A DNA stretch of 64,000 bases. It comes from Tsukamurella asaccharolytica. GTDB lineage: Bacteria; Actinomycetota; Actinomycetes; Mycobacteriales; Mycobacteriaceae. Below are positions 2 to 64,000 of the stretch, one piece after another (the first letter of the stretch is position 1; every line of letters begins with the position of its first letter). A model generated the notes under the pieces. The model was not told the origin of the DNA. It ran no database searches and worked only from the letters and a program-made list of their open reading frames with translations. The position numbers and the translations under genes are program-made. The stretch is from assembly GCF_007858435.1 (NCBI RefSeq), contig NZ_VIGW01000009.1, positions 44,344 to 108,343 on the forward strand, read 5' to 3'.

Positions 2-745
2 GAGGCGGGCCGGCAGATCCGGCAGGCCTTCGTCGCGGGCGAGGGCTACGAGACGCTGATGACGGCGGACTACAGCCAGATCGAGATGCGGATCATGGCC
101 CACCTCTCCGGCGACGAGGGGCTCATCGAGGCATTCAACACCGGCGAGGACCTGCATAACTTCGTCGGTTCCAAGGCCTTCGGCGTCCCGATCGACGAGG
201 TCACGCCCGATATGCGGCGCCGAGTGAAGGCCATGTCCTACGGCCTCGCTTACGGACTTTCGGCCTTCGGCCTCGCAGCGCAGCTGAAGATTTCGCGCGA
301 CGATGCGAAGGACCAGATGGAGGCGTACTTCTCTCGTTTCGGCGGGGTGCGGGACTACCTGCAGGACGTGGTCACCGAGGCCACCCGCAATGAGTACACG
401 GAAACGATCTACGGCCGTCGCCGGTACCTGCCGGACCTCACGTCCACGAACCGGATGCGCCGCGAGGCCGCCGAGCGGATGGCGCTCAACGCGCCCATCC
501 AGGGCAGCGCCGCCGACATCATCAAGGTCGCGATGATCCGGCTGCAGGAGCAGATCGCCGCCGCCGGCCTGCGCTCGCGGATGCTCCTCCAGGTGCACGA
601 CGAGCTCGTCCTTGAGGTAGCCGCGGGGGAGCGGGAGCAGCTCGAAGCGCTGGTCCGCGACACGATGGGCGGCGCCGCGGAACTGTCCGTCCCGCTGGAG
701 GTCTCCGTCGGCTACGGCCGCAGCTGGGACGACGCGGCGCACTAG
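2..745 (+). CDS. polA: DNA polymerase I, C-terminal part (5' end cut by window)
   Basis: C-terminal 247 residues of family A DNA polymerase, which fills gaps in excision repair and lagging-strand synthesis. Translation in this frame runs from the first bases of the window, so the gene begins outside. Motif A (DYSQIEMRIMAH) carries the first metal-binding Asp. Motif B / the O-helix is RRVKAMSYGLAYGLSAFGL. Motif C (QVHDELVLEV) carries the second catalytic Asp. The gene ends with TAG at 743-745. In relatives polA is followed closely by rpsA; here about 3.9 kb of accessory genes separate the two. Confidence 0.97.
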   Translation, partial: EAGRQIRQAFVAGEGYETLMTADYSQIEMRIMAHLSGDEGLIEAFNTGEDLHNFVGSKAFGVPIDEVTPDMRRRVKAMSYGLAYGLSAFGLAAQLKISRDDAKDQMEAYFSRFGGVRDYLQDVVTEATRNEYTETIYGRRRYLPDLTSTNRMRREAAERMALNAPIQGSAADIIKVAMIRLQEQIAAAGLRSRMLLQVHDELVLEVAAGEREQLEALVRDTMGGAAELSVPLEVSVGYGRSWDDAAH

Positions 746-780
746 TCCGCGGTGAGGTGTGGCAGTCTGAATTCATGCGA

Positions 781-930
781 CGTCGCTCGGGTGAGGTAGG
801 ATCTGTGAGATCCGTCCCAGCGGTAACCGCTGGGGGCACCGCACAGTCACACCCTGCGTCCCACGCCGGCGCGTGCGCTGCGCGCACCACACGGCGCTCC
901 GGGACTCTGTTCCAGGTCACCCGAGCGGCG
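781..930 (+). ncRNA. candidate retron msr-msd non-coding RNA
   Basis: A structured 150-nt segment lies just upstream of the reverse transcriptase gene. Its ends are complementary: 781-794 pairs with 917-930 over 14 bp with one G-U pair, as the a1/a2 repeats of retrons do. Directly inside are two perfect hairpins with 3-nt loops: GGATCT/AGATCC at 799-813 and CCCAGCGG/CCGCTGGG at 816-834. These resemble msr stem-loops. A longer imperfect hairpin at 858-905 (GTCCC/GGGAC, then CGCCG/CGGCG, then GTGCGC/GCGCAC around loop TGC) resembles the msd stem. G795 or G796, directly 3' of a1, is the natural candidate for the branching guanosine. The architecture a1-msr-msd-a2-ret is established for retrons; that this segment is transcribed and reverse transcribed is inference. 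Confidence 0.6.
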
Positions 931-944
931 CTCGCATCCCACGC

Positions 945-2222
945 ATGACGTCCGTCGAGATCGTCCGGCGTCTACCGCGGGCACAGCGGTACGCGATCGC
1001 CGATCGGGTCCACCTCCTTGCCGAGGACCTGTGGACCGCGGAGATGATCACGTCGCTGATCCGAGGCACGGTGCCCGAACACCTGCTGGAGCCCGTCGTC
1101 CTGGCGCTTCTGGACGGGCACCCGGAGCCGCCGGTGCGTTTCGTTGACGGCCGACTTCTGCAGTCGGGTCCGGAGCCGATCGCGGCCGCGCTCGACACCG
1201 TCCGCCTCCGCGACACCGTGGCCGCCGGAGACCGCGGCGACGTGCCCGGCCTCGCCCTGCCCGATGTTGCGGCCGTCGCCAGAATGCTCGACCTCACGAT
1301 GCCTGAGCTCGAGTGGTTCGCCGATCACGGTCAGTGGCTTCGACATTCGGCTCCGCCTCTGCGGCACTACCGCGTCCGGCGGATACCGAAGCCGACCGGG
1401 GGAGTGCGTGTCATCGAGGCGCCGAAGCCGCGACTAGCCGAGGCGCAGCGGCGGATCCTGCGGCGCGTCCTCGACCCCGCTGGGGCACATCCTGCGGCCC
1501 GGGGATTCCGCCCGGGCGGATCGGTGCTCGCCTACGCCTCGCCCCATGTCGGCAGTCGTTCGGTGGTCCGGCTCGACCTCCGTGACTGCTTCTCGACGGT
1601 CGCGGTGCCCCGCGTCCGGAACCTCTTCCGGCGGTTGGGGTATTAGGCCCCGGTAGCGACGGTCCTGGCGGATCTGTGCACCGTCGCGACGCCTGCCGAC
1701 GAGCTCCGCGGCCTCGATGCGTGGCGGGCCGCCACGCTGCGGGCGCGGCACCTGCCGCAGGGCGCGCCGTCGTCGCCCGCGCTGGTGAATCTGGCGCTGC
1801 ACCGACTGGATGCGCGGCTCACCGGGCTCGCCCGCGCGCAGGACGCACGTTACACCCGCTACGGCGACGACCTCGCCATCTCGGGGGCGCGCGATCCGGC
1901 GCTGATCGCGGGGGTGGTGCCCACGATCGTGGCGGCGGAGGGGCTATCGGTGAACCCGCGCAAGACGCGGATCATGCGGGCCGGCGCACGGCAGGAACTC
2001 GCGGGCATCGTGGTCAACGCCCGTGCTCAGGTCCCCCGGGCCGAGTACGACGACCTGCGCGCCCTGCTGCACAACGCGGCCCGTTTCGGCGCCGAGAGCC
2101 AGAACCGCGATGGGCACGACGACTTCCGCGCCTTCGTCTACGGCCGGATCGCCTGGGTCGCCCAGGGCAACGAGCAGCGACGAGCGCGCCTGCTCACCAT
2201 GGTCGCACGCGTGCGGTGGTGA
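945..2222 (+). pseudogene. retron-type reverse transcriptase, interrupted by one in-frame TAG
   Basis: RNA-directed DNA polymerase of about 425 codons, counted from the ATG at 945; a GTG at 873 would lie inside the putative msd. An N-terminal extension of about 140 residues precedes the RT fingers and palm. Visible motifs are IPKPTGGVRVIEAPKPRL (about 147-163), motif A RLDLRDCFSTV (209-219), motif B QGAPSSP (272-278), motif C YGDD (306-309) and a late KTRIMRAG block. YASPH at 197-201 matches the retron region X pattern NAxxH. LAG near the C-terminus sits where retrons have VTG (region Y). TAG at 1644-1646 replaces codon 234, between LGY and PVA. The same frame then stays open, with motifs B and C intact, to TGA at 2220-2222. 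No group II intron maturase or endonuclease domain is present. It could be a recent nonsense allele, a readthrough case or a sequencing error. Confidence 0.85.
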
Positions 2223-2237: not shown

Positions 2238-2633
2238 CTACTTGGCCTTCGCGGTCGCGCAGGTGCTGTAGGCGTCCGCCACGGCGCGCTGCACGTTCGC
2301 CTGCTCGCCGGCCAGGCTCATGACGCTGCCGGTACCACGGAAGGCGAGGGCGGCCACGCGGACCTGGCGGACCAGCCCGTCGGAGGCCGCGATGTCCGCG
2401 AACTCCTGCGGTCCGCCGGCAGCCTCCTCGAGACGCTTGGACAGGCCCGGCGACGAGCGGTCGATCGCGGCCCGCAGCTGACCGACGGTGCACGACGTTC
2501 CGGGGACGGCACGCGCGGACTGGGCGTCGGGCTTGGGCGGCGCGGGGGTCGGAGCGGCGGCGGCGAGGGGCGCGCCGGCGAGGGCGATCGCGCCCAGGAC
2601 AGCGGCGGTGGCGGCGGTGCGGCGGAAGGTCAT
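2238..2633 (-). CDS. secreted hemophore-like protein (paralog 1 of 3)
   Basis: A 131-residue exported protein with a Sec signal peptide ending near residue 28 (LAAAA). The mature part contains VPGTSCTVGQLRAAI and a second Cys near the C-terminus (STCATAK), so one disulfide is likely. The PGTxCxVGQ core is shared with the next two genes on the same strand and resembles the small heme-binding hemophore family of mycolic-acid bacteria (Rv0203-like). Start ATG at 2633 is preceded by GAAAGG. Heme binding is inferred from family resemblance only; no axial ligand can be assigned by eye. Confidence 0.6.
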   Translation of the reverse strand: MTFRRTAATAAVLGAIALAGAPLAAAAPTPAPPKPDAQSARAVPGTSCTVGQLRAAIDRSSPGLSKRLEEAAGGPQEFADIAASDGLVRQVRVAALAFRGTGSVMSLAGEQANVQRAVADAYSTCATAKAK

Positions 2634-2659
2634 GCGGGAGTGCCTTTCGGTGAGGATGG

Positions 2660-3013
2660 TCAGTACTTGTCGCAGGTCGCGATGACCTTCGCGATCTTCG
2701 CGTCGATGTCGGCGCGGTTGGCCTTGTAGTAGTCGGCCGCCGCCGGATTGTCCTTGGTCAGCCGATCGATGATCGACTGGCGATCCTCGGGCTTCGCGGT
2801 GAGGAGTTCGGTCGCCTGGTCTCGGCCGCCGGGGGTGGCGTCCATGACCGCGATCGCCTCGGGGGCGACGACCTGGGTGGCACGCTCAACCTGCCCGACG
2901 GTGCACTTGGTGCCGGGCACCTTGTCGGTCGGCGCGGCGGACGCGACGGCGGGGGCGAAGGCGAGGGCGCCCGCGAGGGCTGCGACCGCGGCGGCGATGC
3001 GGATCCGGCTCAT
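2660..3013 (-). CDS. secreted hemophore-like protein (paralog 2 of 3)
   Basis: 117 residues with a signal peptide cleaved near ASA-APTDK. The mature protein has VPGTKCTVGQVERATQVVAPE followed by helical, charged sequence and a C-terminal ATCDKY, giving the same two-cysteine layout as its neighbours. ATG at 3013 is chosen because AGGAG lies 6-10 nt upstream; longer in-frame starts lack a ribosome site. It sits 26 nt upstream of paralog 1 on the same strand, so the genes are probably co-transcribed. Heme capture or transfer is a family inference. Confidence 0.62.
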   Translation of the reverse strand: MSRIRIAAAVAALAGALAFAPAVASAAPTDKVPGTKCTVGQVERATQVVAPEAIAVMDATPGGRDQATELLTAKPEDRQSIIDRLTKDNPAAADYYKANRADIDAKIAKVIATCDKY

Positions 3014-3130
3014 GACTGTCTCCTGTTCGGGCGGTGACCACTGCCTCGCGAGAGTACCGGGTCGGCACGCGCGACGAAAGGACGGCACCGGGAAAGAACA
3101 ACCCGCTGCCGTCCGATCGAAACCCGAGTA

Positions 3131-3571
3131 CTAGCTGGTGGTGCAGCTCGCCTTGACCGCCGCGATCTTCTGCTCCACCTGGGGCTTCGTGGGCTTCGTC
3201 TTGCCGTCGTGCGGCTTCGGACGCGCGGCTTTCGTCTGCCCGGGGTGCGCCTTCTGCCATTCTGCCCGGCGGGCATCGCGGGCCTTCTTCGCGGCGTCCC
3301 GGGCCGCCGCCCGCTGCTCGGGGGTCTTGACGAGCATCTGCTCGAACCGGTCCTTCGCCTTCGCGTTGGTGCTGATGTGCTGCCAGAACTCCGGCGCGAC
3401 TTTCGCGGTGGCGCGCTCGACCTGGCCGACGTTGCACTGGGTGCCGGGGACCGGCGCCGTCGGAGAGACGGGCGCAGCGTTCGCGGCCGCGGGGACGAGG
3501 AGTGCGGCGCCGGACAGCGTTGCCGCGGCTGCGGTCGCCGCCGCCAGCCGAGTGCGGGTGAATCGGTTCAT
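3131..3571 (-). CDS. secreted hemophore-like protein with Lys/Pro-rich tail (paralog 3 of 3)
   Basis: 146 residues. The signal peptide ends near ANA-APVSP. The mature protein has VPGTQCNVGQVERATAKVAPEFWQHI, then a strongly basic Lys/Ala/Pro-rich stretch (about residues 92-132) not found in the other two paralogs, and a final SCTTS. ATG at 3571 has AAGGAG just upstream. It is probably first in the three-gene run. The basic tail could contact cell-wall polyanions or membrane, but that is speculation. The long open frame upstream of this start is GC-driven and antisense to nothing real. Confidence 0.6.
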   Translation of the reverse strand: MNRFTRTRLAAATAAAATLSGAALLVPAAANAAPVSPTAPVPGTQCNVGQVERATAKVAPEFWQHISTNAKAKDRFEQMLVKTPEQRAAARDAAKKARDARRAEWQKAHPGQTKAARPKPHDGKTKPTKPQVEQKIAAVKASCTTS

Positions 3572-63875: not shown

Positions 63876-64000
63876 TTTATGGAGAGTTTGATCCTGGCTC
63901 AGGACGAACGCTGGCGGCGTGCTTAACACATGCAAGTCGAACGGTAAGGCCCTTCGGGGTACACGAGTGGCGAACGGGTGAGTAACACGTGGGTGACCTG
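63876..64000 (+). rRNA. rrs: 16S ribosomal RNA, 5' end (runs off the window)
   Basis: The universal 5' block AGAGTTTGATCCTGGCTCAG begins at 63883, so the mature end is near 63876. GACGAACGCTGGCGGCGTGC and the start of helix 6 follow. The stretch AACGGTAAGGCCCTTCGGGG is, from memory, that of Tsukamurella. Confidence 0.97.

Follow-up and report, generated by a model that had tools for sequence, protein, structure and literature searches.

A probable retron unit with no apparent effector gene beside it, downstream of polA in Tsukamurella asaccharolytica

Comparison with described retrons

What is known of retrons concerns chiefly defence systems of three parts, whose effectors are normally encoded next to the reverse transcriptase (RT) or fused to it; retron Ec86 (Eco1), for one, has a neighbouring effector. 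The window, that is the whole 64,000-nucleotide (nt) stretch of contig NZ_VIGW01000009.1 of Tsukamurella asaccharolytica that was analysed, carries just after polA a segment that is a real retron-type RNA and that forms, with the RT gene downstream, a compact two-part element. This element is very probably a retron unit of a lineage without an apparent effector gene beside it. Earlier papers describe how a retron RT uses as primer an msr guanosine that lies within AGC, and how it copies the msd, the order in Ec86 being msr-msd-RT (PMC6868368); they note actinobacterial retron RTs (PMC6868368; PMC6498646) and mention retrons without clear effector neighbours (PMC8867640). The order of Ec86 was found here also: the a1/a2 ends of the RNA enclose msr and msd parts, and the RNA lies directly upstream of the RT gene on the same strand.

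With its in-frame stop read as X, the RT of the window was matched best in PADLOC by RT_other (PDLC02949; 1.7e-157) and RT_outgroup (PDLC03740; 4.5e-150), over nearly the full protein, and then by RT_XIII (8.1e-91). Six relatives were scanned as well, and in four of them, from Gordonia and three other groups, the first two profiles again came out best, but they name the RT only. An N-terminal extension of about 135 residues belongs to the family, because the profile match covers it. Retron type XIII, or Mx162-like, resembles the unit in being the next-best profile, in the N-terminal extension that Mx162-like RTs also have, and in forming the neighbouring branch in one midpoint-rooted tree, in which Mx162 was represented by an approximate fragment. 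However, RT_XIII is the top profile for L154 and L160, the Myxococcota RTs of this branch that were scanned, whereas the window RT prefers RT_other, and the actinobacterial members form a clade of their own. The RNA model R1, described below, found no match below E 0.4 at any of the loci L152-L161. NCBIfam gave matches below cutoff only, the best being retron RT families, and the best relatives among solved structures (PDB) are retron RTs, Ec86 first, although Ec86 is distant from the window RT. PADLOC, NCBIfam (below its cutoffs) and the PDB matches all place the RT among those of retrons; Pfam, run on the RTs of three relatives, gave only RVT_1 above threshold, with one sub-threshold match added in a single relative. 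The catalytic YGDD stands at residues 306-309. Among 57 aligned RTs this motif, which in retrons is typically YADD, is YGDD in 30 and YADD in 27 (YGDD in 29 of the 36 actinobacterial ones), and altered catalytic cores are known among retron RTs according to a passage of PMC6868368.

The original prediction called this retron undescribed, which holds in part. There is no Rfam family for the RNA: at the gathering threshold the window gives only the start of a 16S gene and four relatives give only a SAM-IV riboswitch, and below it two chance-level matches fall within window 700-1000. No description of the RNA was found in those parts of the literature that were searched, although an earlier description may exist, and a search pairing Tsukamurella with retron returned no paper; PADLOC profiles, however, already fit the RT. 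The actinobacterial RT of PMC6498646, cited in a passage of PMC6868368 for putative actinobacterial retrons, is likened to this one by description and not by sequence; the passage on it contains no RNA and the text lacks the word msDNA (multicopy single-stranded DNA).

Fold of the RNA and its linkage to the RT gene

Two findings on which the original prediction had staked its claim, a fold more stable than dinucleotide-shuffled sequence and a conserved pairing of the a1 and a2 ends in relatives, were both borne out. The RNA-coding stretch folds with -93.9 kcal/mol, against -73.2 +/- 4.3 kcal/mol for 200 dinucleotide shuffles (z = -4.86), none of which was as stable; for the trimmed segment z is -5.14. 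Comparison with relatives made use of 32 sequences, the window included, picked by eye for diversity; this alignment omits 21 of the 48 RNA-bearing named loci, among them three (L064, L073 and L081) with a differing first hairpin. RNAalifold predicted 41 pairs, 26 of them with compensatory changes. The proportion of cells paired (95.0% vs 81.8% in shuffles), the number of double-change cells (170 vs 51.7) and the covariation score (0.382 vs 0.145) were each beyond all of 500 shuffles, and sliding the partners by 1-3 columns left a score of at most 0.104; these shuffles ignore kinship, and a structure derived from an alignment tends to outscore its slid versions, chiefly on cells paired. In helix 1, the a1/a2 stem, 12 of the 15 counted pairs have compensatory changes on both sides and 90.6% of cells are paired, and the arm sequences diverge strongly between genera yet still pair. 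The layout of a1, candidate priming guanosine, two short hairpins, longer hairpin, a2 and RT recurs in eight actinobacterial genera, named here by record title (Tsukamurella, Williamsia, Gordonia, Rhodococcus, Rhodococcoides, Dietzia, Nocardia and Hoyosella). Ten Burkholderiaceae relatives, folded separately, have the same end stem, a hairpin with a 3-nt loop and the msd hairpin, and all ten carry AGC at the place corresponding to the candidate priming site.

The linkage of this RNA to the RT was followed with R1, a covariance model built from the 32 aligned sequences, whose E-values are rough. A scan of named genomes for the RT gave 371 loci, the best 80 of which are 48 actinobacterial loci (L034-L081), a further actinobacterial one (L092) and 31 from other groups; loci L013-L033 partly duplicate L034-L081, and named loci are counted where possible. 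R1 matches 70 of 71 actinobacterial sources, some being the same locus fetched twice, and finds the RNA beside 48 of the 49 named actinobacterial RTs, of which 27 are rows of the model, two (L034 and L038) are the same loci as rows, and the other 19, which had no part in the model, were all found. Within Tsukamurella the RT is present in 11 of 16 genomes and the RNA in those same 11. Across the family the RT occurs in 115 of 401 genomes at E<=1e-25. The RNA was found in 40 of 121 family genomes, some of them sources of R1 training sequences, and in all 40 an RT match follows on the same strand, 3-428 nt past the RNA end; about 41 of the 121 are RT-positive, and the single one lacking the RNA (G026) has a short RT match only. 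Outside the actinobacteria R1 gives weaker matches, at E<=0.021, in 25 of the 31 loci, all except L084, L089, L095, L097, L100 and L107. In L110 the match overlaps the RT; in the other 24 it lies wholly upstream of the RT match, and these come from Pseudomonadota, Myxococcota, Planctomycetota, one Acidobacteria metagenome-assembled genome (L086) and one unclassified bacterium (L098). The element is thus found in many actinobacteria and in some other bacteria. Weak opposite-strand matches (E >= 0.04; in the window, 710-877) overlap the same stretches, as expected of near-palindromes.

In a midpoint-rooted RT tree all 41 actinobacterial RTs included fall in one clade with support 100/100. Given that the Tsukamurella rows group together, as do the Dietzia rows, while those of Gordonia and Williamsia are intermixed, the tree suggests a mostly vertical descent of the RT with some transfer. 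On the 46.8 kb Dietzia plasmid pII (L146, NZ_CP046569.1) the RNA-RT unit stands between merA and a transposase gene, with the R1 match at 2854-3021, and because of this location the unit may move between replicons. A record titled Kitasatospora arboriphila (L067) resembles Williamsia muralis (L065 and L066) in RT, RNA and neighbours and is probably mislabelled or contaminated. A phage origin was also considered and rejected: 20 phage records match, none with more than 60% identity or with 80% coverage.

The retron reading is drawn from the covariation, the RNA-RT linkage, the retron RT profiles and structures, the invariant guanosine, the selection on the RT discussed below, the lack of a widely shared neighbour and the Burkholderiaceae folds. 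Several observations weigh against it. The trinucleotide at the candidate priming guanosine is AGA in 23, AGG in six, CGA in two and AGT in one of the 32 sequences, and so never the AGC of described retrons; the Burkholderiaceae fold pairs this guanosine, replaces hairpin 1 by a longer, weaker pairing, and has double changes in only six of 48 pairs. In region X (NAXXH) the histidine is kept in all 57 RTs, mostly with the alanine, but in the 20 commonest variants, those listed, the asparagine is absent, its place being taken mostly by F or Y; a passage of PMC6868368 reports this residue substituted in Mx65 and Ec48 too. The region Y motif VTG occurs in only four of the 57, LAG standing in 35 of them and replacing VTG in 30 of the 36 actinobacterial RTs, and region Y variants are, according to a passage of PMC4244168, found among retron RTs. 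No RNA was found by R1 beside the actinobacterial RT fragment L092, seven of the 31 loci from other phyla have no match wholly upstream of the RT, and one of these, the Burkholderia locus L107, lacks any match at E<=0.021 although its relatives have one. Finally, the RT of the window itself is interrupted by an in-frame TAG.

Neighbourhood and rival explanations

Beside the unit no dedicated effector is apparent, within the limits of mechanical open reading frame calling (from 70 amino acids up, so that small genes may escape), because no neighbour is widely shared and the two candidates that follow the RT also occur without it. Of 45 actinobacterial loci at most 15 share any one neighbour family, and that widest sharing is apparently by synteny; among 30 other loci (29 from other phyla and L092) none exceeds seven, all of them Paraburkholderia. 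An adjacent or fused effector specific to one of the numbered retron types (I-XIII) was likewise not found. In the window the RT and the gene that follows it are just 15 nt apart (2222-2238), whereas most relatives have a HAD-like gene, an HTH-regulator gene or both between the RT and a set of hemophore-related genes. The HAD-like gene was rejected as an effector, being present after the RT in six of ten other RT-bearing stretches but also in three of five RT-lacking genomes, and the HTH-regulator gene likewise, with nine of ten and five of five respectively. The original prediction had placed the unit at a polA-rpsA junction, which is true of Tsukamurella: all 11 RT-bearing genomes have the unit downstream of polA, at a distance of 0.2-2.6 kb, and rpsA follows further on in ten of the 11 fetched stretches (in that of G009 neither rpsA nor the hemophore genes were seen). 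Different genes flank the unit in the other genera that were inspected. The five unit-less Tsukamurella genomes have other genes between polA and rpsA in the four stretches that reach rpsA, the stretch of G011 being short.

Given a compact unit with no widely shared neighbour, it is possible that the retron is tripartite after all and that the gene of its toxic effector lies at a distant place in the genome. However, this is rather unlikely for two reasons: first, retron effectors are usually adjacent or fused; second, the unit occurs in many genera and at differing loci, so that a distant partner would have to travel separately.

The original prediction regarded the order of parts as complete. 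This is right for the layout, but it had missed that codon 234 of the RT frame starting at ATG 945 is a TAG, upstream of the catalytic YGDD. Ten other Tsukamurella genomes carry the gene uninterrupted, the window copy being the sole exception of 11. The ratio of nonsynonymous to synonymous substitution rates (dN/dS) is 0.19-0.35 across 15 pairs of six Tsukamurella RTs, which points to selection on these RTs and is counted in favour of the retron; between the window RT and five relatives it is 0.20-0.28, as among those relatives, and the parts before and after the stop each give values like theirs. Because these values resemble those of intact relatives on either side, the interruption is, as judged from the substitutions, either recent or an error of the draft assembly. 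With its RT truncated ahead of the catalytic motif, the window copy is probably inactive and the element recently inactivated. That the TAG is instead a sequencing or assembly error, or is read through, and that the retron of the window is intact, appears doubtful. The assembly is a draft of 81 contigs and the even dN/dS would fit an error, but a recent real mutation would give the same picture, and the window also lacks the two genes found after the RT in most relatives, which indicates local change. Whether the stop is real or an error, activity in the strain of the window is not to be assumed.

The RNA segment, at 775-937, ends with its a2 arm only 7 nt before the RT start codon and on the same strand, so that its fold could affect translation, and the segment could be a regulatory leader or attenuator of the RT gene, structured but not serving as a template. 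This is very improbable: in several other genera the nearest RT start is further from the RNA, and a retron, but not a leader, requires a long end stem around msr-like hairpins, an invariant guanosine at the end of that stem, a long conserved hairpin and an RT of the retron type. Another RT system with an RNA of its own (a group II intron, a diversity-generating element or an antiviral defence-associated RT) is hardly credible, given that the profiles of group II intron maturase and of Drt2 match weakly, the former at 53 bits against a cutoff of 300, that both PADLOC and NCBIfam give far better scores to retron profiles, and that no intron RNA was matched at the Rfam gathering threshold anywhere in the window.

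Layout, proposed mechanism and possible role

The coordinates of the unit are collected in Table 1. The polA frame is open at the window start (2-745, stop codon 743-745) and the RNA-coding stretch comes next, the conserved RNA measuring about 165 nt. The 14 base pairs (bp), one of them G-U, that the original prediction drew between 781-794 and 917-930 are present, as are its longer imperfect hairpin and the RT start codon 14 nt past 930. The end stem is longer than was drawn there, since 775-780 also pairs with 932-937 past a one-base bulge (C931), giving 20 bp in total. Of the two compact hairpins with 3-nt loops, hairpin 2 is as described, whereas hairpin 1 has five pairs and a larger loop in the comparative fold, not six pairs and 3 nt, and is missing from the minimum-energy fold of the window sequence alone. 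One pair of hairpin 2 has compensatory changes and six are invariant in the 32 sequences. The outer pairs of the msd hairpin (858-862 with 901-905) appear when the window sequence is folded by itself. Upstream, 30 of the 48 named loci have TGGCA 12-14 nt ahead of the model start and two more have it 5 nt ahead; in the other 16 it is absent from the last 40 nt.

Table 1. Features of the RNA-RT unit in the window
Feature	Position	Strand	Remarks
Extended -10 promoter-like motif (TGGCANNNT)	760..768	+	Just upstream of the RNA; putative function
a1 arm of end stem	775..794	+	Pairs with 917-937
Candidate priming (branching) guanosine	795	+	Directly follows the last a1 pair; G in 32/32 aligned sequences
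msr hairpin 1 (GGATC...GATCC)	799..813	+	5 consensus pairs, 4 with compensatory changes
msr hairpin 2	816..834	+	8 bp, 3-nt UAA loop; 100% of cells paired in 32 sequences
msd hairpin, template for predicted DNA	858..905	+	Helices 5 and 6; 9 of 13 pairs with compensatory changes
GGTC at a2 border, predicted template start	915..918	+	Invariant in 32/32 sequences
a2 arm of end stem	917..937	+	Pairs with a1; same covariation basis as a1
Whole non-coding RNA by covariance model R1	772..940	+	140.1 bits; window is one of the 32 R1 training sequences
Retron-type RT gene	945..2222	+	N-terminal extension and RT domain with YGDD; in-frame TAG 1644-1646 (codon 234)

From this layout a mechanism can be proposed. 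Transcription would start at a promoter just upstream of a1, and the RNA would fold with a1 and a2 paired. The RT would bind the msr hairpins and prime from the 2'-OH of G795, which stands where a retron priming guanosine does, at the end of the a1/a2 stem, and it would copy the msd, starting near G916 and running back across the hairpin at 858-905. This would yield a short hairpin DNA, an estimated 50-60 nt long, joined to the RNA. The resulting RT-RNA-DNA particle might act alone, with the N-terminal extension as its partner domain, or together with a protein whose gene lies elsewhere.

Judged from what other retrons do, the unit most likely serves phage defence. A more speculative proposal, to be held only tentatively, is that the unit represents a lineage, spread over several phyla, of two-part retrons that are self-contained: the RT-RNA-DNA particle would itself do the work, with no dedicated effector gene, and might serve DNA replication or repair and not abortive infection. 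Such a purpose is considered because genes of this kind are neighbours in three actinobacterial settings: a DNA polymerase III alpha-type gene (L049, 6076-9477), recA (L057, 8333-9673) and polA (window, 2-745), the first two identified in one scanned representative each and polA by sequence, among the contexts that were scanned. A role in DNA repair is a lead only. Among 30 neighbour proteins scanned in other contexts, Pfam identified no replication or repair enzyme; a DUF222/HNH endonuclease and a resolvase were recognised once each, and seven of the proteins matched nothing at E<=1e-8. A widespread lineage of RNA and RT with no apparent effector alongside makes the role of effector-less retrons directly testable, and Gordonia, Williamsia, Dietzia and Rhodococcus are cultivable in the laboratory. 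The unit also offers native actinobacterial retron parts for DNA production, and the covariance model could locate the RNA where annotation misses it.

Two further observations concern the remainder of the window. Downstream of the RT, on the - strand at 2238-3571, three small secreted-looking genes stand in a row; none has a Pfam match at E<=1e-4, and in T. tyrosinosolvens two genes in the equivalent position carry a hemophore-related annotation. At the far end, 63876-64000 holds the first part of a 16S rRNA gene that runs on beyond the window.
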